Below, one piece after another: positions 49,902-58,967 of a DNA stretch of 64,000 nucleotides (positions are counted from its first letter, which is position 1; the number at the start of each line of letters is the position of its first letter). Where the stretch lies: contig OY282519.1 of NCBI GenBank assembly GCA_958296405.1, positions 2,154,132 to 2,218,131 on the forward strand, in the 5' to 3' direction. Below the pieces are notes generated by a model. That model was not told where the DNA came from, did not search any database, and worked only from the letters and a program-made list of their open reading frames with translations. A program made the position numbers and the translations under genes. Source of the stretch: an uncultured Pseudomonadales bacterium (GTDB taxonomy: Bacteria > Pseudomonadota > Gammaproteobacteria > Pseudomonadales > Azotimanducaceae).

Positions 49902-52900
49902 ATGACGAAGCTCGCGCCCTGTGCCCGCCGCGCCAAGCCGGCAGCGCGCCGAGCCGCGCTGCCGGACGTCTCGTTCCCGCCGGAATTGCCCATCTCGGCG
50001 CGCATCGACGAGATCGTGGCGCTCATCCGCACCCACCAAGTGGTGATCGTCGCCGGCGAAACCGGTTCCGGCAAGACGACGCAGCTGCCCAAGGCGTGCC
50101 TCCGCGCCGGTTTGGGCAAGCGCGGCATGATCGGCCATACGCAGCCGCGGCGCTTGGCGGCGCGGGCATGCGCCACGCGCATCGCCAAGGAGATGAACGT
50201 GCCGGTGGGCGGCGCCGTGGGTTTCGCCGTGCGCTTCGAGGAGGCCACCAGCGACGATATGCTCATCAAGGTGATGACCGACGGGCTGCTGTTGGCGGAA
50301 ATCCATGCCGACCGGCGCCTCAGCGCTTACGAGGCCCTCATCATCGACGAGGCCCACGAGCGCAGCCTGAACGTGGACTTCCTGCTCGGCTACGCGAAGC
50401 GCCTGTTGCGGCGACGGCCGAACTTTAAGGTCATCATCACCTCCGCCACCATTGATGTGGAGGCGTTTCAAGCACACTTTGACGGCGCCCCGGCGGTGAC
50501 GGTGAGCGGCCGCGGCCACCCGGTGGATGTGGTCTACCAGGAAGAAGCGGACGATCAATTCGAGGCGCTGGACCGCTGCTTGGCCGAGATCAGCCGCCGC
50601 CGCGCTGGCCGGGCGCGGGACACCTTGGCGTTCCTGCCCGGCGAGCGGGAAATCCTGGACGCCTCGCACTGGCTGCGGCGCACATGGGGGGACCGCTTCG
50701 AGGCGCTGCCGCTGTATGCCCGCCTGCCGGCCAAGGAGCAGCGCCGCATCTTCGCGCCGAGCGCCCGCCCGCGCATAGTGCTCGCCACCAACGTCGCGGA
50801 GACGAGCATCACCGTGCCGAATGTCGGTTATGTGATCGATTTCGGGCTGGCGCGCATCGCCCGCTACAGCCATCGCTCGAAGATTCAACGCCTGCCGGTG
50901 GAGCGCGTCTCCCAAGCGAGTGCCGAGCAACGGGCTGGACGCTGCGGCCGCGTCGCCCCGGGCACGTGCTTTCGCCTCTACTCGCAGGCAGATTTCGAGA
51001 GTCGGCCGCGCTACACCGTGCCGGAGATCAAGCGTTCCAACTTGGCTGCCGTCGCGCTGCGGATGTTGGACTTGGGGCTTGGCGACATCGAAGGCTTTCC
51101 CTTCATCGACCCGCCGGAGCCCCGCGTCGCCCGCGATGCGCTGCGCAGCCTCGGCGAGTTGGGCGCTCTGCGGGAGGCCCCGCAGGAGGTGCCGGGGGCG
51201 GGTAACCGGGAGGTGAAGGGGGCGGGCAACCGGGAGGTGAAGGGGGCGGGTAGTAAGGACGGCAAGGATAGAGGCGGCGTCACGCGCCTCAGCCGCATTG
51301 GCCGCACGATGGCTCGCCTGCCGGTGGATCCGCGTTTGGCGCGGATTCTCGTCGGCGCATCCCGCTTTGGTTGCCTGCGCGAAGCCCTCGTTGTCGTGGC
51401 GGCGCTCTCCGTCCAAGACCCACGCGAACGGCCACCGGAGCGGCGCGAGGCGGCGGACGCCGCGCACCGCCAAGACGCCCACAAACAGTCGGATTTTCTA
51501 ACCTTCGTCAATCTTTGGAATGTGTTGGAGGCGCAACGCGCGGCGTTGACCCGCGCCGCGTTCCGCGCGGAACTCACGCGCCGGTTCCTCTCCCCGCACC
51601 GCGTTGCCGAGTGGCGCGCCGTGCATCGGCAACTGCTGCTTGCGGCCAAGGCCCTCGGCTGGCCGCTCAACCGAGCGCCGGCGGAAGAGGCCAGCCTGCA
51701 TCGGGCGCTGTTGATCGGTTCGCTGGATTTTGTCGGCTTGCGCGACGAGGACGGCGTCTATCTCGGTGCGCGGGGCCTGAAGTTCCGCATCTTCCCCGGC
51801 TCGCCCGTCGCCCGCCGTGCTCCGCAGTGGTTGATGGCGGCGGAAATCGTGCAAACGCGGCAAACCTACGCTCGCGACGTCGCCAAGGTGGAGGCGCATT
51901 GGGTTGAAGAAGCGGCCGGGCCGTTGTTGCAGCGCGCTTGGTCCGAGCCGCACTGGAATGTGAAACGCGGCGAAGTGATGGCATTCGAGCGCGCCACGCT
52001 GCATGGCTTGCCCGTGGTGGAGCGCCGCTTGGTGCGCTACGCGCCAGTGAACCCGTCCGCGGCGCGGGAACTGTTCGCTCAAGAGGCGCTGGCGCCGGCG
52101 ACGCTGGGCGTTGAGGATGTCGGCGTCGAGGCCCCGTTTCTGGCGCACAACGCTGCGGTCGCCGCCGGCATCGCCGAGCTGGAGGCGCGCCATCGGCGGC
52201 ATGACCTCTTCGTCGCCGCGAATGTGCTGGCTGCCTTCTACTTGGAGCGACTGCCGCCCGACGTGTGCGGCGTCAGCACCCTGCGCGCTTGGCTCAAGCA
52301 GGCGGATCGGCCCGCCATCGGCCGTCTGACCATGACCGAAGCGGACTTGCTCGCCCGCTTCGACGTCGAGGCGTCTGCGACGGACTATCCGGCCACCTTG
52401 GAGGTGGATGGCCTGGCATTACCGCTGAAGTATCGCTTCGCTCCCGGCGCGGTGGACGATGGCGTCTCCGTTGAAATCGGCCTCGGCGCGTTGCCGCATC
52501 TGCGCCAAGCGCCGCTGGATTGGCTGGTGCCGGGGTTCTTCGAGCGCAAGTGCGCGGCGCTCTTGAAGGGGTTGCCGAAGCGTTTGCGCCGCCGCCTGCC
52601 GCCAGGCAGCGCCGCCGTCGATGTGGCGCCGGCGCTGTTGCGCGAGCCGCGCTATCGCGATGGCGCCTTGCTGGCGGCCCTCGCCGTGCGCTTGAGTGAA
52701 GCGTTTGGCATGGACGTGGCGCCCAGCGATTGGAGCGTGGAGCGTTTGGAACCCTTCCTGCGCATGAACGTGCAGGTGTTGGACGCGCGACGGCGTCTCA
52801 TCGATCAAGACCGAGACTTGGCGGCGCTGCAGTCGCGCCTGCTGGCCCGCGTTGAGCGCGAAGCCACGGCGAGCGCCCGCGAGGGCTACGAACAGCGCGG

Positions 52901-53759
52901 GCTGACGACGTTCCCAGCTGCCGGCGTGCCGGCGACGCTCACCGTGGGCGCCGGTGGCGAGCAAACCGTCGCCTATCCGGCCTTGCGCGATGCCGGCGAT
53001 GCCGTGGAGCTGGTGCTGCTGACGCACCGCGCCGATCAAGGGCGCGCTAACCGGCGCGGATACAGCCGCCTTGCCCTGCTCATGAATCGCAAGGCGGCGC
53101 GTCACTTGCGCGGGCGCGTGGCCGCCGAGCGGACGATGACGCTGCACTACGCCGCCCTCGGCGGGGCGGCGGACCTCGCGGACGAGCTGGCGTTGGCGGC
53201 ATCTTGGGCTTGCTGTTTTGAGGGGCGCCCGCTGCCAACGGAGAAGGACAGTTTCGAGCGCCGCTGCGCGGACTGCCGGCCGCGCCTCGTCGCCCTGTTT
53301 GGCGATGCGCTGGAGGCCACCCGCGCCGTGCTCGCCCGCCGTATCGAGGCCGCGCAGCGCATCGCGTCGCTCGCATCTCCGGCCTTCGCCGCCAGCCGGG
53401 CGGACATGGAGGCGCACCTTGGGCGCTTGGCGCCGGCGGACTTCCTCAGTCGCACGCCCATCCAAGCCTTGCCGGATGTGGCGCGCTATCTCGATGCGTT
53501 GATCCACCGCGCCGCGAACCTGCACGGCAAAGTGCGGCGCGATCAGGAACACCTTGCCGACGCCGCGCGCTGGCAGGCGCGGTTGGAAGCCTTGGCCGCG
53601 GCCGCGCCGGAAGCGACCGCCGCGGCGGATGTCGCGGGGCTGGTGGAGGAGTATCGGGTGTCGCTTTTCTGCCAGCGTCTCAGCTTGAAGGGCAAGGCTT
53701 CGCCGCAGCGCTTGGAGCGTGTGTTGGCGCCACTCGAAAAGGCTGCTGGCTTGCGTTGA
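49902..53759 (+). CDS. hrpA: ATP-dependent RNA helicase HrpA
   Basis: A 1285-residue DEAH-box RNA helicase (E. coli HrpA is 1300). N-terminal RecA core: VAGETGSGKTTQLPKACL (Walker A, about 50-67), GHTQPRRLAARACATRIA, DEAHERSLNVDFLLGY (about 149-164), TSATIDVEAF, LAFLPGEREI, AETSITVPNVGYVIDFG, and QRAGRCGRVAPGTCFRLYS; then the winged-helix, ratchet and OB-like domains and a long C-terminal HrpA-specific region (DUF3418) ending LAPLEKAAGLR. Between residues about 428-455 is an in-frame insert of three near-identical 24-base repeats (51194-51265), encoding GAGNREVK units, immediately before the conserved LSRIGRTMARLPVDPRLARI block. Confidence 0.97.
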   Translation: MTKLAPCARRAKPAARRAALPDVSFPPELPISARIDEIVALIRTHQVVIVAGETGSGKTTQLPKACLRAGLGKRGMIGHTQPRRLAARACATRIAKEMNVPVGGAVGFAVRFEEATSDDMLIKVMTDGLLLAEIHADRRLSAYEALIIDEAHERSLNVDFLLGYAKRLLRRRPNFKVIITSATIDVEAFQAHFDGAPAVTVSGRGHPVDVVYQEEADDQFEALDRCLAEISRRRAGRARDTLAFLPGEREILDASHWLRRTWGDRFEALPLYARLPAKEQRRIFAPSARPRIVLATNVAETSITVPNVGYVIDFGLARIARYSHRSKIQRLPVERVSQASAEQRAGRCGRVAPGTCFRLYSQADFESRPRYTVPEIKRSNLAAVALRMLDLGLGDIEGFPFIDPPEPRVARDALRSLGELGALREAPQEVPGAGNREVKGAGNREVKGAGSKDGKDRGGVTRLSRIGRTMARLPVDPRLARILVGASRFGCLREALVVVAALSVQDPRERPPERREAADAAHRQDAHKQSDFLTFVNLWNVLEAQRAALTRAAFRAELTRRFLSPHRVAEWRAVHRQLLLAAKALGWPLNRAPAEEASLHRALLIGSLDFVGLRDEDGVYLGARGLKFRIFPGSPVARRAPQWLMAAEIVQTRQTYARDVAKVEAHWVEEAAGPLLQRAWSEPHWNVKRGEVMAFERATLHGLPVVERRLVRYAPVNPSAARELFAQEALAPATLGVEDVGVEAPFLAHNAAVAAGIAELEARHRRHDLFVAANVLAAFYLERLPPDVCGVSTLRAWLKQADRPAIGRLTMTEADLLARFDVEASATDYPATLEVDGLALPLKYRFAPGAVDDGVSVEIGLGALPHLRQAPLDWLVPGFFERKCAALLKGLPKRLRRRLPPGSAAVDVAPALLREPRYRDGALLAALAVRLSEAFGMDVAPSDWSVERLEPFLRMNVQVLDARRRLIDQDRDLAALQSRLLARVEREATASAREGYEQRGLTTFPAAGVPATLTVGAGGEQTVAYPALRDAGDAVELVLLTHRADQGRANRRGYSRLALLMNRKAARHLRGRVAAERTMTLHYAALGGAADLADELALAASWACCFEGRPLPTEKDSFERRCADCRPRLVALFGDALEATRAVLARRIEAAQRIASLASPAFAASRADMEAHLGRLAPADFLSRTPIQALPDVARYLDALIHRAANLHGKVRRDQEHLADAARWQARLEALAAAAPEATAAADVAGLVEEYRVSLFCQRLSLKGKASPQRLERVLAPLEKAAGLR
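51194..51265 (+). repeat. 24-bp tandem repeat inside hrpA (about three copies)
   Basis: Two almost identical 24-base units (51194-51217 and 51218-51241, one T/C difference) and a third diverged partial copy (51242-51265). They are in frame and encode the repeated peptide GAGNREVK. E. coli HrpA has no such element at this point, so it is a recent expansion in a surface loop. Confidence 0.8.
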
Positions 53760-53802
53760 GCGTGATGCCGGCGGTGTTCAACACGGACGCGCACGCCGCC
53801 GC

Positions 53803-53829
53803 TTGACCGCCGGGGGACTGTGCTATAGT
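53803..53829 (+). promoter_or_regulatory. Putative bufA promoter (TTGACC, 15 bp, extended -10 TGCTATAGT)
   Basis: A -35 TTGACC (53803-53808) and -10 TATAGT (53824-53829) preceded by TGC form a plausible sigma-70 promoter 55 bases upstream of the bufA ATG. The 15-base spacer is short, a defect usually compensated by the extended -10. No copper-responsive operator was identified. Confidence 0.45.
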
Positions 53830-53884
53830 CGCCTCGCCAACGCTGGCTCAAGTCGGAGCTGGCCCAAGCTAGGAGAAAGGACTC

Positions 53885-54154
53885 ATGAACATTCGCAACC
53901 TGAAGCCTCTCGTCGCCGCCATCGGCACCGCGCTGGCCGCCTCCATGCCTGCTTTTGCAGCAAACGACGCGAGCGAGAACCCCTTCGCTTTGGATGAGCT
54001 GCGCGACGGCTATCACCTGTTCGCGAAAGGCCATGGCGAAGGCGATGGCGAAGGCGATTGCAGCACCGACGGCGAAGGCCATTGCAGCGGCGAAGGCAAT
54101 TGCAGCGGCGACGGTGAGAAAGACAAAGACGATTCGGGCCACGACGAAGCCTGA
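53885..54154 (+). CDS. bufA: Bufferin-like RiPP precursor (secreted, Cys-containing)
   Basis: An 89-residue precursor: signal peptide (MNIRNLKPLVAAIGTALAASMPAFA), a mature part starting ANDASENPFALDELRDGYHLFAKGHGE, then a low-complexity Gly/Asp/Glu/Ser core with exactly three cysteines, each in an EGxCS unit: EGDC (Cys59), EGHC (Cys67), EGNC (Cys73). The NPFALDELRDGY block is shared with bufferin-type BufA proteins, in which EGKCG motifs are converted to thiooxazoles by an MNIO enzyme to buffer copper in the periplasm. Here Lys is replaced by Asp/His/Asn and the following Gly by Ser. AGGAGAAAGG precedes the ATG. It is followed by MNIO and DUF2063 genes. Assignment as a RiPP precursor is strong from context; metal specificity is unknown. 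Confidence 0.82.
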   Translation: MNIRNLKPLVAAIGTALAASMPAFAANDASENPFALDELRDGYHLFAKGHGEGDGEGDCSTDGEGHCSGEGNCSGDGEKDKDDSGHDEA

Positions 54155-54171
54155 TCTGCGTTTTTCCTGCT

Positions 54172-54209
54172 GGCAGCGGCCGGCCTTGGCTTCGGCCAGG
54201 GCCGCTGCC
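54172..54209 (+). promoter_or_regulatory. Strong hairpin between bufA and bufB (UUCG loop), no U tract
   Basis: Perfect 10-base arms GGCAGCGGCC (54172-54181) and GGCCGCTGCC (54200-54209) enclose an inner TGGC-TTCG-GCCA helix with a stable UUCG-type loop. There is no U run after it, so it is more likely a transcript-stabilising or partial attenuating element that would favour the precursor over the downstream enzymes, a common ratio control in RiPP operons. Confidence 0.5.
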
Positions 54210-54234
54210 GCCAAGATCTGATTGATCGCCATCC

Positions 54235-55095
54235 ATGACGGCGGCGTTTGGCGGCGCGGGCCTAGGCTTGCGCCGCATGTTTCTTCCTGCGTTGCAGGAA
54301 CATCGCGAAGCCGTTTCGCAAGGCATCGATTTCGTGGAGGTGGCGCCCGAGAACTGGATTGGGGTCGGCGGCCGTTCCGCTCGCCAGTTCCGCCAGTGGA
54401 TCGAGCGCTTCCCCCTTGTCTGCCACGGCCTCTCCCTGTCCCTTGGTGGCCCAGACCCGCTTGACGTCGCCTTCTTGAAGCGCGTCAAGGCATTCTTGGA
54501 CGACACCGGCGCCGTCCATTACACCGAGCACTTGAGCTTCAGCGGCGCCGATGGGCAGCTCTACCATCTGCTGCCGATCCCCTTCACCGCCGAAGCGGTG
54601 GACTACGTTGCCGCCCGCATCCGCCAAGCGCAGGATGTGCTTGAGCGGCGCATCGCGGTGGAGAACGTCTCCTGCTACGCGACGCCGGGCCAAGAGATGG
54701 ACGAGCTTGCGTTCATCAACGAGGTCGTGGCGGCGGCGGATTGCGCGCTCCTGCTCGATGTCAACAACATCGTCGTCAACAGCGTGAACTTCGGTTTTGA
54801 CGCTGAGGCGTTCTTGGACGGCCTGCCCGGCGACCGCACGGCGTACATCCATGTCGCTGGCCACCGCGTCATCGCGCAGGACTTGCGCGTGGACAACCAC
54901 GGCTCGCCGGTGAGCGCCGAGGTGTGGGCGCTCTTGGAACGCGCCTACCGCAACTTCGGCGTTTTGCCAACGGTGCTTGAGCGGGACATGCACCTGCCTC
55001 CGGTGCCAGAGTTGCTGGACGAGGCGGCGCAGATTCGCGCCATCCAAGCCCGCAGTTCGGCGCCCGAAGCGGCCCCCGCCGGGGTCGGCGCCTAG
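54235..55095 (+). CDS. bufB: MNIO (DUF692) multinuclear non-heme iron oxidase, BufB-type
   Basis: A 286-residue TIM-barrel of the DUF692/MNIO family. Conserved blocks: GIDFVEVAPENWIG, CHGLSLSLGG, VHYTEHLSF, IAVENVSCYA, LLDVNNIVVNSVNFG, AYIHVAGHR and DNHGSPVSAEVWALLERAY, containing the His, Glu and Asp residues that bind two or three iron ions. In characterised systems (MbnB, TglH, ChrH, bufferin BufB) the enzyme oxidises cysteines of a precursor peptide to heterocycles. The precursor is immediately upstream. Start ATG 54235 begins right after the inter-gene hairpin. The tail after AIQARSS is low complexity. Confidence 0.9.
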   Translation: MTAAFGGAGLGLRRMFLPALQEHREAVSQGIDFVEVAPENWIGVGGRSARQFRQWIERFPLVCHGLSLSLGGPDPLDVAFLKRVKAFLDDTGAVHYTEHLSFSGADGQLYHLLPIPFTAEAVDYVAARIRQAQDVLERRIAVENVSCYATPGQEMDELAFINEVVAAADCALLLDVNNIVVNSVNFGFDAEAFLDGLPGDRTAYIHVAGHRVIAQDLRVDNHGSPVSAEVWALLERAYRNFGVLPTVLERDMHLPPVPELLDEAAQIRAIQARSSAPEAAPAGVGA

Positions 55096-55110
55096 GCCAA
55101 CGGGTCTTAA

Positions 55111-55860
55111 GTGAGCGACGTGGGCGAACTGGGCTTTCAAGCGATCCAGCGCGAGTTGGCCGCCTACCTCCGCGCTCCAGATGCGATCCCGCCTCCAGCC
55201 GGCATCGATGCGCGGCGGCTGCGCCTCTACGTCGATATCTGCTACACCAACGTCGAGGGCTTCCTCGCGCGCACCTTCCGCGTCGCCCGGAGCATCACGC
55301 CAGATGCGCGTTGGCATGCCATGGCGCGGGACTTCTACCAGCGTCACCGCTGCGAGTCGCCGTACTTCTACGACATCGCGAAGCAGTTCCTCGACTACTT
55401 GGAAGGGCAGCGGAACGCGGCAGACGATCCGCCGTTCCTGCGCGAACTCTGCCACTTCGAGTGGGTGGGGCGGATGCTGGATCGCTTGGATGCGGCGCTG
55501 CCGCCGGCCACCCCGGCACCGGCGACGTTGCTGGGGCATCACTTCATCGTTTCACCTCTAGCCAAGGTGCTGTGTTACCGCTTCCCCGTCCACGCCATCG
55601 GGCCAGACGCGCAACCCACGGCGGCGCCCTCGGCGCCCACATGGTTGATCGCCTACCGCGACCGCAGCGACCGCGTGGACGTGATGGCCTCGAACGCGCC
55701 CACTGCGCGGCTTGTTGAGCGCGTCGGCGCTGGCGACAGCTTGCGCCAAGCGCTGGCGGAGGTGGCGCGGGAACTGGGCCGCGACGTAAAGGGAATGTTG
55801 CAGTTCGGCGAGACCATCGGGCGGCGCCTCGTTGAGCGCGACATCCTGCTGCTGGCTTAA
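55111..55860 (+). CDS. bufC: DUF2063 (BufC-type) partner protein of the MNIO enzyme
   Basis: A 249-residue protein with the DUF2063 fold: an N-terminal DNA-binding-like helical domain (FQAIQRELAAYLRAPDAIPPPAGIDARRLRLYVDICYTNVEGFLARTFRVARSI) followed by a beta-rich region (HFIVSPLAKVLCYRFPVHAI, WLIAYRDRSDRVDVMASN). In bufferin and related operons this partner recruits the precursor leader to the MNIO enzyme, analogous to MbnC. GTG 55111 is used. The gene ends the operon; no DoxX-type bufD follows. Confidence 0.85.
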   Translation: MSDVGELGFQAIQRELAAYLRAPDAIPPPAGIDARRLRLYVDICYTNVEGFLARTFRVARSITPDARWHAMARDFYQRHRCESPYFYDIAKQFLDYLEGQRNAADDPPFLRELCHFEWVGRMLDRLDAALPPATPAPATLLGHHFIVSPLAKVLCYRFPVHAIGPDAQPTAAPSAPTWLIAYRDRSDRVDVMASNAPTARLVERVGAGDSLRQALAEVARELGRDVKGMLQFGETIGRRLVERDILLLA

Positions 55861-56289
55861 GCGCCGCCGAACTGCCCGGCCCGACGTTCCGCAGGGCGCT
55901 CATCCATTGCGTTGCCACGCTGCTCTGCTTGGCTCGGCTAGGTTGTGAGCGGTGCGCCTTGGGTGACGGGTAGGGCGGTTGGCGCGTTCGACGGTGCCGT
56001 TGAGGTGCGGTGAGCGGGGCGGCAGCACGGGCGGCGGCAGGCCCGCGCCCTGCGCGGAGCTCCTTCAAGGTCACGCGGTCGATGTGCGTGGCCATCCTGT
56101 GCGGACATCGGCATCGCTCGGTTTCCCATGTTTGTCCAGCTCATAGGCTGTCGAACCGCCGCGCCCGAGGGCTTCCTTGGGCGCGGCACTGTCCGAAGGC
56201 GATGATTCCGTTCAAACGCTTGACTCCCTTGGTCGGCGGCAGGACACTGCCGGCGCAATGTGGCTGGTTGCCGGCGGAGGGCTCGCGCC
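55861..56289. other. Long intergenic stretch containing a degenerate transposase fragment
   Basis: A 429-base interval between bufC and the TPR gene. The minus strand carries a recognisable transposase remnant (about 55950-56040, annotated separately). The rest (56100-56289) is GC-rich without an obvious promoter, terminator or RNA gene. Small frames on both strands here have no domain and are not called. Confidence 0.5.
55950..56040 (-). pseudogene. Relic of an IS481-type (rve/DDE) transposase
   Basis: On the minus strand one frame reads LPPPVLPPRSPHLNGTVERANR, which is the canonical block near the third catalytic residue of IS481/IS3 integrase-type transposases (PPRSPxLNGxVERxNR with the catalytic Glu). 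A short second piece upstream is in another frame with a stop between, and nothing matches the rest of the enzyme. No terminal inverted repeats were found. So it is a decayed insertion-sequence fragment, not a functional gene; extent is approximate. Confidence 0.65.
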
Positions 56290-57768
56290 ATGATTCTGCC
56301 TCGACAACTTGGCTGGATGGCAGCGCTAGCGATGGGCTGCAACGCGTGGGGCGGCGCTGCGTCCGAGGCGCCGGCTATGCCGGCTGGCGACGTTGCCTCG
56401 GCGTCCGAGGCACCGGCCACGGTGGCCGGCGAGGTGGCCGCGGCGTTTGAGGAGGGCCCGAACGACCCCGCCCTGCGCATCGAGACGCAGCTCATCGGCA
56501 GCGAATTCGCCGCCGCCGCGGCGCAGGCGGAGCAACTCATCGACGCACTGCAGCGCGCCACCACCCGCTACGATCCAGCGCTGTCGCGGCCCTTGGCGCT
56601 GCTTGGCGATGCCCGCCTTGGCTTAGGCGATGCGCCGGGCGCCTTGGAAGCCTACGATCGGGCGCTGCACATCGCCCGCATCAACCACGGCCTCTTTGAC
56701 CCGGGACAAGTTGACATCGTGTATCGGGAAGCGGTGGTGCATGCGGCGATGGGCGACGCGGCCACTGCGGACGCGCGCCACGAATACGCCTACAACGTGT
56801 TGGTGCGCGCCTACGGCCACAACCATCCAGACCTTGTGCCGGGCATCTTCGCACGCGCGGAATGGTTTCGCGCCAGCCACAACATTTTCTTCGCCCGCAA
56901 CCTCTATCAGCGTGCCGCCAAAATTGGGCTGCGTGAGTTCCCGGCCGGCGACGCGCGCACCATCCGAGCGCTGCGGGGCGTGGCCGCCACGTTCCGGGAC
57001 GAGCGCTTCCCGCCGGCGCGGGTGCGCGAGCGGCCCGGCAATGCCGCCGCCCGTCGCTCTGGCGGCAACACGCCGCATGGGCAAATCTCGCTCAATGACT
57101 TCTCGCCCGGCGAGCAGGCCTTGATCGATGTCATCAACCAACTGCAGGCGCGCGCAGACGCCACCGAGGCGGAAATCGCGCTGGCCATGCTCGAATTGGC
57201 GGATTGGTATCTGTTGTTCGACAAGCACAGCCGCGCCGTGCCCCTCTACCGCCGCGTTTGGCAACTGTTCGAGGCGGGTGCGCCGCATTGGCTGGAAGCG
57301 CAAAGGCCAGAGCGCGGGGTGCGGAGCGTTGAAGGCGGGGCGAGCAAGCTTGAGAGCGCAGCGACTGTCGTTGAGGCCGGGGCAGACGGGCTGGGGGGGC
57401 GGGCCAACGGGTTCGAGAGCGTGGCAAAAGGGTCACAGCGCGGGGCAGCGTGGCGCGCCGAGACCTTGGGTGCACCGGCGCCGCTTTACCTGCCGTTGCC
57501 GCCACCACCGACGCGGCCGAAGGGCGGAGCGAGCGACACGGCGGAGCAGGGCATCGTCGAACTCGCCATCACCGTGACGGAACGTGGCCGCGTGGTGGAC
57601 ATCGAAACCTTGCGTTCCGAACCGGAGGGATTGATGGACCATCGGGTGCGGCGGGCGACGCGCAGCGCCCGCTATCGGCCCATGTTGACCGATGGCGGCC
57701 CGGTGCGCACCGAAGGTGTGCGCATTGAGTATCGCTTTGCGCACTATCCGCTCGCGGCAGGCCAGTGA
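56290..57768 (+). CDS. TPR protein with C-terminal TonB-C-like domain
   Basis: A 492-residue exported protein: a signal peptide with an Ala/Gly-rich stretch (MILPRQLGWMAALAMGCNAWG), then a TPR-like helical region (about 60-290) with LGDARLGLGDAPGALEAYDRALHIARINHG and AVVHAAMGDAATADARHEYAYNVLVRAYGHNHPDLV. The last 80 residues (GIVELAITVTERGRVVDIETLRSEPEGLMDHRVRRATRSARYRPML) have the TonB C-terminal fold, as in periplasmic proteins that pair tetratricopeptide repeats with a TonB_C domain. Residues about 345-395 are a Gly/Ala-rich low-complexity insert. First of the envelope cluster 56290-64000. ATG 56290 is preferred over the TTG-frame extension; no clear ribosome site. Confidence 0.75.
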   Translation: MILPRQLGWMAALAMGCNAWGGAASEAPAMPAGDVASASEAPATVAGEVAAAFEEGPNDPALRIETQLIGSEFAAAAAQAEQLIDALQRATTRYDPALSRPLALLGDARLGLGDAPGALEAYDRALHIARINHGLFDPGQVDIVYREAVVHAAMGDAATADARHEYAYNVLVRAYGHNHPDLVPGIFARAEWFRASHNIFFARNLYQRAAKIGLREFPAGDARTIRALRGVAATFRDERFPPARVRERPGNAAARRSGGNTPHGQISLNDFSPGEQALIDVINQLQARADATEAEIALAMLELADWYLLFDKHSRAVPLYRRVWQLFEAGAPHWLEAQRPERGVRSVEGGASKLESAATVVEAGADGLGGRANGFESVAKGSQRGAAWRAETLGAPAPLYLPLPPPPTRPKGGASDTAEQGIVELAITVTERGRVVDIETLRSEPEGLMDHRVRRATRSARYRPMLTDGGPVRTEGVRIEYRFAHYPLAAGQ

Positions 57769-57869
57769 ACGCGCGATGCCACGCCGCGCCGGCTTCAGGC
57801 GCGGTTCAGCCTTGCCGGGCTAGCATGGCTTGGGTAATGCGCCACGGGCTCTTCAAGGAACATCACGCC

Positions 57870-58967
57870 ATGACATTGCGATTCACAGCGCTTGTCGCCG
57901 CCGCCAGCTTGGCCCTTGCCGCCTGCTCTTCGTCGCGGCCACCGAGCGTGCCGCAGCCGCCATCTAGGCCGTCGCAGAGCATGCCTTCGCCGTCGAGTTC
58001 GCCCTCGCAGCCGAGCATGCCCTCGCCATCGAGTTCCCGTTCCCAGCCCAGTTCACCGTCGCGGCCGAGCATGCCGTCGCCGCCATCGAGTTCGCGTTCC
58101 CAACCGAGCCTGCCGACGCCGAGCAGTTCGCCGTCGCGGCCGAGCATGCCCTCGCCGCCATCGAGTTCCCCTGCACGGCCGAGCTCGCCTTCCGATTCCC
58201 GTTCGCAGCCCATGCCAACGCCTTCGGACTCGCGTTCCCAGCCCGGTCTGCCAACGCCGTCCAGTTCCTCCACGCCAGCGAACTTGCCAACGCCGGCTGG
58301 CCGGCCGGGTGCGCCAGCGCCCGGAAGCGCGCCAACCCGGCCGGGAGAGGATGCGTCGAGCCAAGGCGATCCATCCTCCCAGCCGGGTGGCCGCCCCGAC
58401 GCTGGGGACGAGGCAAACGGTGGTGGCCCCAACCGGCCGGCCAATGACGGTTGGGAATCCAGCAATCAACTGCCGGAAACGGCCGGTGGCGAAACCCGAT
58501 CTGTGCCCGGCAACGGCGGGCAGCCAACGGCTCAGCAACGTGGAAGTGGCCAGCCTGGCGGCGGACGGCCAACGCCCGGCGATGGCGAGCTCGACGCCGC
58601 CTTGGGCGAAATCGATGGCGAGATTTTGAGCGAGCGGGCGACAATACTGGCGCGACGCAACGAGACCGCAGGGCAACGCCCGGCGCCGGAGGCATCAGGC
58701 GGCGGCGCCGAAGACGCGGACGAAGCGCCGGCGGCCGGCGGTGGCGACGCCGCGCAGATGCCTGGCCGGATGCCCGGCGGGGAGGCCCGCCGGGCGCCGC
58801 GCCCAACGCCAGTGCGCATGCCCGGCCGGCCGGTGCCGCCGGATGTGGCGGACGCGCGCGATGACGATGTGGTGTGCCGGCAACTGCGCGAGGCGGCCAT
58901 GCAAGAGGTGGACGTGGCGTTGCGCGAAAAATTGTGGGACGAATATCGGCGCTGCAGGGAGCGATAG
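57870..58967 (+). CDS. Ser/Pro-rich lipoprotein
   Basis: A 365-residue lipoprotein: signal MTLRFTALVAAASLALAAC with lipobox LAAC and Cys19. Residues about 20-145 are a Ser/Pro repeat region (many SMPSP, SSSRSQP units), then an Ala/Gly/Pro-rich acidic linker, and a short helical C-terminus with DDVVCRQLREAAMQEVDVALREKLWDEYRRCRER carrying two cysteines. The Ser/Pro stretch is like a cell-wall-spanning spacer. Its stop shares a base with the GTG start of the next gene. No family is recognised. Confidence 0.75.
   Translation: MTLRFTALVAAASLALAACSSSRPPSVPQPPSRPSQSMPSPSSSPSQPSMPSPSSSRSQPSSPSRPSMPSPPSSSRSQPSLPTPSSSPSRPSMPSPPSSSPARPSSPSDSRSQPMPTPSDSRSQPGLPTPSSSSTPANLPTPAGRPGAPAPGSAPTRPGEDASSQGDPSSQPGGRPDAGDEANGGGPNRPANDGWESSNQLPETAGGETRSVPGNGGQPTAQQRGSGQPGGGRPTPGDGELDAALGEIDGEILSERATILARRNETAGQRPAPEASGGGAEDADEAPAAGGGDAAQMPGRMPGGEARRAPRPTPVRMPGRPVPPDVADARDDDVVCRQLREAAMQEVDVALREKLWDEYRRCRER
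57950..58200 (+). repeat. Ser/Pro-coding repeat array in the lipoprotein gene
   Basis: A repetitive tract of short PS-rich units. Two blocks of about 48 bases with a 75-base period (25 codons; 58050 and 58125 on) are almost identical and both contain TCGCGGCCGAGCATGCC, differing mainly at synonymous sites, so recent unequal duplication is likely. Confidence 0.7.

Follow-up and report, generated by a model that had tools for sequence, protein, structure and literature searches.

A probable hvfABC-type thiooxazole-metallophore operon, apparently retuned to Cys-Ser substrates, in an uncultured Pseudomonadales bacterium

The stretch of DNA analyzed here (64,000 nucleotides of contig OY282519.1 from an uncultured Pseudomonadales bacterium; "the window") carries an operon for a ribosomally synthesized and post-translationally modified peptide (RiPP), with the genes in the order precursor, multinuclear non-heme iron-dependent oxidative enzyme (MNIO) and DUF2063 partner, all on the + strand. 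At a probability that we put at roughly three in four, this is a functional hvfABC-type operon for a thiooxazole metallophore that has been retuned to Cys-Ser substrates. What is unusual about it is the combination of a serine after each core cysteine, a six-residue repeat and a matching change in the enzyme; the loss of lysine from the repeat, taken alone, is not. The family models and a direct reading of the sequence bear out the outline given by the first-pass annotation, namely a RiPP operon in which a secreted 89-residue precursor with EGDCS, EGHCS and EGNCS units precedes MNIO and DUF2063 genes and in which the core departs from EGKC(G). The features of the operon are as follows.

53885..54154, + strand: hvfA-type precursor, 89 residues (open reading frame, HvfA profile, comparison with the sister species)
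53978..54013, + strand: leader block NPFALDELRDGY, precursor residues 32-43 (within the HvfA-profile match)
54050..54109, + strand: core EGDCSTDG-EGHCSG-EGNCSG, residues 56-75 (survey, tandem-repeat analysis)
54235..55095, + strand: hvfB, MNIO maturase, 286 residues (family models)
54988..54993, + strand: Met252-His253 of HvfB, ERDMH where most relatives have ERDFN (probable equivalent of FonB Phe250 and the residue after it)
55111..55860, + strand: hvfC, partner with DUF2063 and NGO1945_C, of the RiPP recognition element (RRE) type, 249 residues (family models)

Assignment of the operon

Bufferins, oxazolin and fontiphorin have been joined in one class, the captophorins (PMC13097082), within which the bufferins proper, Buf1 (DUF2282) and Buf2 (6/12 Cys), are listed apart from an EGKCG set, Buf_EGKCG/oxazolin (PMC12452194). 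The MNIO of the window passes the NCBIfam cut-off for HvfB (NF003818; 386.4 bits, cut-off 360) and fails those for BufB (NF050167; 260.6 bits, cut-off 310) and for the methanobactin enzyme MbnB (TIGR04159; 56.1 bits, cut-off 325), while its partner passes that for HvfC (NF050145; 243.2 bits, cut-off 142). The Pfam matches in the operon are MbnB_TglH_ChrH, DUF2063 and NGO1945_C, and structural homologues are 3BWW for the MNIO (6.5e-62) and 3DEE for the DUF2063 partner (2.6e-6).

The precursor was compared with a profile made from the first ~68 residues (signal peptide, leader and start of the core) of the relatives' precursors, with the window and its sister species excluded. It scored 56.5 bits (E 2.6e-15), the top score among 20,000 shuffles of the same precursor being 13.7 bits, and none of the 404 other open reading frames (ORFs) in the window rose over the inclusion line of the profile. 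The NCBI HvfA models NF050137 and NF050188 have no match at E 1 to the precursor of the window or of the sister, though NF050137 does match that of a canonical relative (L034, 7.8e-22); they also miss L007, a precursor of the same genus that has EGKCG units and a Phe-gated enzyme (one with Phe at HvfB position 252, the gate position discussed below), and L003 scores under the cut-off, so that the model test alone is a weak one. A match of the window precursor to PF22807 (1.6e-5) is below the Pfam cut-off, probably reflects acidic composition and was set aside. Because of the model scores of the two enzymes and the HvfA-like N-terminal part of the precursor, the operon, as far as its sequence goes, is of the hvfABC type and belongs to the oxazolin/fontiphorin branch rather than to bufABC. 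Direct reading of the precursor finds no EGKCG repeat, and the core is outside the EGKCG definition.

A true bufferin operon would have the identical gene order, and the precursor does give a weak match to BufA2 (NF050166; 15.2 bits, E 0.018, cut-off 60); the placing of bufferins and oxazolin in one class also speaks for such a reading. We nevertheless regard it as highly improbable, given that the MNIO lies under the BufB cut-off and over that of HvfB, that DUF2282 (BufA1) is not among the Pfam matches of the precursor at E 1, that the precursor matches the HvfA profile, and that the operon sits downstream of hrpA, as do operons of the genus with EGKCG, EGECG and EGNCG cores. The label "bufferin-type" first given to it holds at the level of the captophorin class and not as bufABC. 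EGKCG, then taken as the bufferin motif, instead marks the precursors of the HvfA, oxazolin and fontiphorin group (PMC12452194), and the leader block that had been cited in support of BufA-type recognition sits where the relatives' HvfA precursors match and does not speak for BufA.

The core repeat

The precursor has a Sec-type signal peptide (about residues 1-25, by eye) and an acidic tail, and the core cysteines are Cys59, Cys67 and Cys73, in EGDCS, EGHCS and EGNCS respectively; with three of them the precursor is no poorer in Cys than others of the genus (2-3). The sister species, an uncultured Pseudomonadales metagenome-assembled genome (MAG; OY282379.1), has the core DGDCSG-DGDCSG-DGHCSG and keeps all three genes, which together with the HvfA-profile score speaks against a chance arrangement. 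Successive cysteines are thus 8 and then 6 residues apart in the window, against 6 and 6 in the sister. The most frequent spacing where the enzyme is Phe-gated is 5 (527 of 1075). Among the loci examined, at most 192 once rows with masked letters and L085 are omitted, seven show a spacing of 6 anywhere, window and sister included. At the DNA level, Tandem Repeats Finder reports an 18-bp unit in 2.3 copies at 54070-54111. The serine after each cysteine, which the first-pass annotation had read as a replacement for glycine, is there, but the repeat is better read as EGxCSG with a period of six than as Gly changed to Ser; it would have arisen through insertion of a Ser codon after that for Cys and ahead of that for Gly, the enlarged unit being duplicated afterwards.

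Ser after every Cys occurs in two of the 193 surveyed loci with a precursor, the window and its sister. The first-pass annotation had also suggested that Asp, His and Asn in place of Lys, along with the Ser, may change the modification or the metal preference. Such an effect is possible, but loss of Lys by itself is not unusual: Lys is missing from position 3 in 13 further loci (window, sister and the spurious L085 aside), including the nearest members of the genus, with EGNCG/EGQCG cores and the usual Phe in the enzyme. The genome of the window yields one match to the precursor, and no second precursor of this type was found in it. Elsewhere in the survey, the precursors of L125 and L139 carry Cys pairs four residues apart in place of EGKCG (in L125, KCGTFCA and AKCGNICA).

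Changes in HvfB and the gate position

All 21 near-invariant His, Asp, Glu, Asn, Tyr and Trp positions of HvfB are kept in the window. Seven sites at which Phe-gated HvfB is at least 90% conserved differ in both the window and the sister: C103S, D111H, Y188F, T221N, L247V, F252M and N253H. T221N falls between the near-invariant D220 and H222, which are probable metal ligands.

Of particular interest is F252M, by which both species have ERDM. Position 252 is probably the equivalent of Phe250 in FonB, since an Asp-Phe dyad is shared and lies about equally far from the Arg pair: the Arg-to-Asp distance is 234 in FonB and mostly 235-236 in the survey, and of the 12 most frequent Asp-Phe places listed, ERDF alone comes near that value. 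In FonB the proposed catalytic base is Asp249, and Phe250, the next residue, has been modelled against substrate positions 3 and 5; mutation of Phe250 alters substrate tolerance, and wild-type FonBC accepted Ala alone among double variants at position 5 (PMC13097082). We infer that F252M lets Cys-Ser be processed.

Survey of the gate residue and the residue after Cys

The counts that follow come from a second survey, for which 237 of 251 HvfB loci were used. Those excluded were L065 (a chance match in Robiginitalea, where there is no MNIO reading frame), L066 (the same as L009), L010, L123, L219 and L220 (below the HvfB cut-off) and L204-L211 (longer copies), while L002, L006 and L067 were kept without an HvfB-model score. 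A precursor was found in 193 of the 237, the rule used giving none in 44. For the column scan, the 11-clade test and the two-pair test below, L085 was dropped as spurious and L156 added by hand; the first survey, which lies behind the four-pair test, included some spurious upstream ORFs.

Residue 252 is Phe in 221 of the 237 enzymes, the others having Asn (4), Met (3), Thr (3), Leu (2), Glu (2), His (1) and Ala (1). In the 179 Phe-gated loci, Gly follows Cys in 1252 of 1270 cases (Ala 11, Ser 2), as compared with 42 of 72 (Ala 15, Ser 10) in the 14 loci with another residue at the gate. Any residue other than Gly after Cys is seen in 12 of these 14 loci versus 12 of the 179 (Fisher 6e-11, relatedness ignored). 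When 70 conserved HvfB columns were scanned for association with non-Gly after Cys, position 252 came first (9e-13) and 253 second (1e-8), with the next at 5e-5, and the two still led (5e-11 and 4e-7, 69 columns) when window and sister were left out.

The pairing of Met252 with Cys-Ser might be a coincidence of descent with no functional link, a reading for which the small number of independent events and the low power of the tests on supported branches can be cited. We consider it unlikely, in view of how far positions 252 and 253 stand above the other columns of the scan, with or without the window's lineage, and of the best tree, on which the non-Gly fraction of the 11 non-Phe clades is higher than that of the nearest Phe tip in 9, lower in 0 and equal in 2 (sign test, p 0.004).

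A number of points nonetheless tell against a role for Met252 as proposed here. The sign test rests on many unsupported branches, and the tests on sister pairs joined by supported branches (four pairs and two pairs) are not significant. Gly is the sole residue after Cys in two of the 14 non-Phe loci (L143 and L216), and the non-Gly threshold is passed in 9 of 178 Phe loci. The match of position 252 to Phe250 was made from residue spacing and the Asp-Phe dyad, and what is said here of Met-gated enzymes comes from their sequences. Phe-bearing FonBC once modified an LVHCY variant (PMC13097082), so that Phe is no absolute bar to a larger residue after Cys. Finally, six other conserved HvfB positions changed as well, and Met252 therefore need not be the cause.

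A scan for the pattern PT..ERDM[N/H], with one genome per species (GTDB r220), gave three matches, one in the sister, one by chance and one in a MAG of the Methylophilaceae. This count is a lower bound, the pattern being narrow and records near the window's genome possibly left out. The Methylophilaceae locus (L067, CAILHX010000031.1) has a separate Met-gated HvfB and a core of DGSCC, DGSCC, DGSCS and EGNCK together with DGKCG and TGKCG, an independent case that counts in favour of the proposed retuning; its hvfABC genes lie at about 600-2750, with a sigma-factor-like ORF upstream (by eye). A tblastn search of plasmids with HvfB returned 352 records, all below 60% identity.

Some other precursors in the survey are of separate interest. 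Those of L153 and L156 (ORFs 730-1038 and 728-1051, coding strand), which accompany Glu-gated HvfB, have no EGKCG and end in a C-terminal DPAVCG[ST]FAG[TS]SCSMAHL motif, possibly the mark of a further precursor type. L126 and L214 have EGKCG repeats as well as PAVCG and AAKCS, with a Phe-gated enzyme.

Relatives and descent

MNIO is present in all nine genomes of the genus that were searched. The genome from which the window comes, a single contig of 3.83 Mb, gave a single MNIO match, with no second found. The genus cores are EGECG/EGKCG in L004, L005 and L007 and EGNCG/EGQCG in L002, L003 and L006. One genome, G005 (L008, L208), has a stop inside the HvfB frame, and no precursor was found in it. 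An HvfB tree built without the columns that surround position 252 unites window and sister in one clade (100/100). This clade joins the EGNCG/EGQCG loci at 93/93 and falls within the genus at 88/85, both of these values being below the level starred by the tool.

The gene upstream of the operon is the following.

49902..53759, + strand: hrpA, flanking gene, given as context (family models, comparison of genus loci)

It precedes hvfABC in the window and in seven of the eight other genus loci examined, with a gap of 1.3 kb in the sister; the operons thus share one place across the genus, which suggests vertical descent.

Function, decay and product

It could be asked whether the operon is decaying, with the repeat eroding as the pathway falls out of use. 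Position 3 has no Lys, the genome has no match to DoxX (PF07681) at E 0.001 in a search that was positive in 7 of 14 control genomes, and HvfB is more diverged on the stem of the window and sister than the neighbouring hrpA. The last point rests on identities, with no rate test: for HvfB, 64.1% between window and L205 versus 73.5% between L209 and L205, the same comparison giving 61.2% versus 64.9% for HrpA and 50.2% versus 54.4% for HvfC. We think decay very unlikely, however, since the ratios of nonsynonymous to synonymous substitution between window and sister (NG86, no significance test) are low in all three genes, at about 0.21 for hvfA (.058/.278), 0.17 for hvfB (.038/.218) and 0.10 for hvfC (.029/.300), which argues against decay since the two species split; every Cys-Ser pair is kept in both, as are the near-invariant residues of HvfB. 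The divergence of HvfB is read as probable retuning under selection, not decay.

In the proposed course of events, the repeat of this lineage would have passed from EGxCG, with a period of five, to EGxCSG, with a period of six and Ser now after each Cys, and the enzyme would have been altered together with it, by F252M and N253H along with C103S, D111H, Y188F, T221N and L247V. HvfC, the RRE partner, would recruit HvfA, presumably by way of the leader, and present the core to HvfB. The latter, as a multi-iron oxidase, would carry out a four-electron oxidation of each core Cys, giving a 5-thiooxazole, with an expected shift of about -4 Da per Cys and -12 Da in total. The peptide would be exported by the Sec route and, in the periplasm or beyond it, bind copper, as Cu(I), or a soft metal of similar kind. 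The modification, its chemistry and the binding of metal are all put forward for this operon by analogy with HvfB, FonB and NgoB. HvfB has been described as having a mixed-valent diiron centre (PMC13419390), and bufferins are reported to aid growth under copper stress (PMC12452194), although the authors of a study of a marine Microbulbifer relative hesitate over such a role (PMC12538549).

An active enzyme might also make something other than a plain 5-thiooxazole, or a product that prefers another metal, as a result of the Ser, Asp, His and Asn flanks and a remodelled pocket. T221N stands beside probable metal ligands, F252M and N253H come directly after the catalytic Asp, and Phe-gated enzymes hardly ever come with Asp or His at position 3 of the repeat (1 and 0, respectively, of 1250 Cys). 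Set against this, all characterized MNIO-PME1 cases install 5-thiooxazole, though whether it is the sole product was left open, and FonB F250D still yielded it (PMC13097082), so that we take a different chemistry or metal to be distinctly unlikely. It is speculation that the Ser hydroxyls and the Asp, His and Asn side chains beside the rings alter metal preference. A bolder proposal, possible but on the whole doubtful, is that of a distinct EGxCSG subclass, in which position 252 would act as a one-site code for the residue after the modified Cys. F252M (with N253H and T221N) would then have made Cys-Ser, in a six-residue register, acceptable to the enzyme; the product would carry heterocycles flanked by Ser, with Asp, His or Asn nearby, and its ring chemistry or its preference for metals would be unlike that of the known captophorins.

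Flanking sequence

Between hrpA and the precursor gene lies a block held in common with the sister species.

53800..53884, + strand: block 5' of the precursor, with promoter-like letters TTGACC..TGCTATAGT and AGGAG (by eye)

It does not stand out when six other loci of the genus are aligned, and a strict scan for promoters and terminators gave 0 promoter-like sites and 1 terminator-like site, not above shuffles. The next sizeable ORF 3' of hvfC (56260-57768) has TPR and TonB C-terminal domains, while the sister and G007 have on the same side an ORF of 370 residues and, farther on, a gltX-like ORF (by eye); the downstream neighbourhood therefore differs from that of the window. Several overlapping tandem-repeat arrays lie at 57977-58189, in a Ser/Pro-rich ORF of 400 residues (57765-58967), and a 24-bp tandem repeat of 2.8 copies at 51185-51252, inside hrpA, encodes in-frame EVKGAGNR repeats.

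Comparison with known systems

In the literature searched, supplements being outside its coverage, neither an EGxCSG core nor a naturally occurring Met at the gate was found described, though published data sets could include examples. The genus offers a natural experiment at one site, where operons with EGECG/EGKCG or EGNCG/EGQCG cores and an unchanged gate can be compared with EGxCSG and a changed one. Position 252, tied to selectivity by the FonB mutation, becomes a candidate for predicting which residue follows Cys, which could aid the annotation of such pathways, and the paired change of repeat and enzyme is a clue to how modifying enzymes choose their targets.

The nearest characterized systems are HvfABC/oxazolin of Haemophilus influenzae and FonABC/fontiphorin of Fontimonas thermophila, with which the operon shares the A-B-C order, an HvfB-family MNIO, an HvfC-family RRE partner and an exported precursor with an HvfA-like N-terminal part and EG-type Cys repeats. 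It differs from them in having EGxCSG with a period of six rather than EGKCG with a period of five, Asp, His and Asn in place of Lys, and Met-His rather than Phe-Asn after the catalytic Asp, as well as in the lack of a DoxX match in the genome, a DoxX-like fourth gene being frequent, though not universal, in HvfABC-type operons. With the Buf_EGKCG/oxazolin set (PMC12452194) it has in common an MNIO, a DUF2063 partner and an exported EG-Cys precursor, but not EGKCG or a match to the NCBI HvfA models. The bufferin systems, BufA1 or BufA2 with BufBC, resemble it in their MNIO, DUF2063 partner, exported Cys precursor and presumed copper role, whereas the window has no DUF2282 or BufA2 match at cut-off and its MNIO is under the BufB cut-off. 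At the gate, Cys-Lys MNIOs have Asp where the window has Met. The Methylophilaceae locus L067 is like the window in its Met-gated HvfB and in residues other than Gly after Cys, and unlike it in that the next residue is Asn rather than His, that DGKCG and TGKCG are kept, and that it belongs to another lineage.

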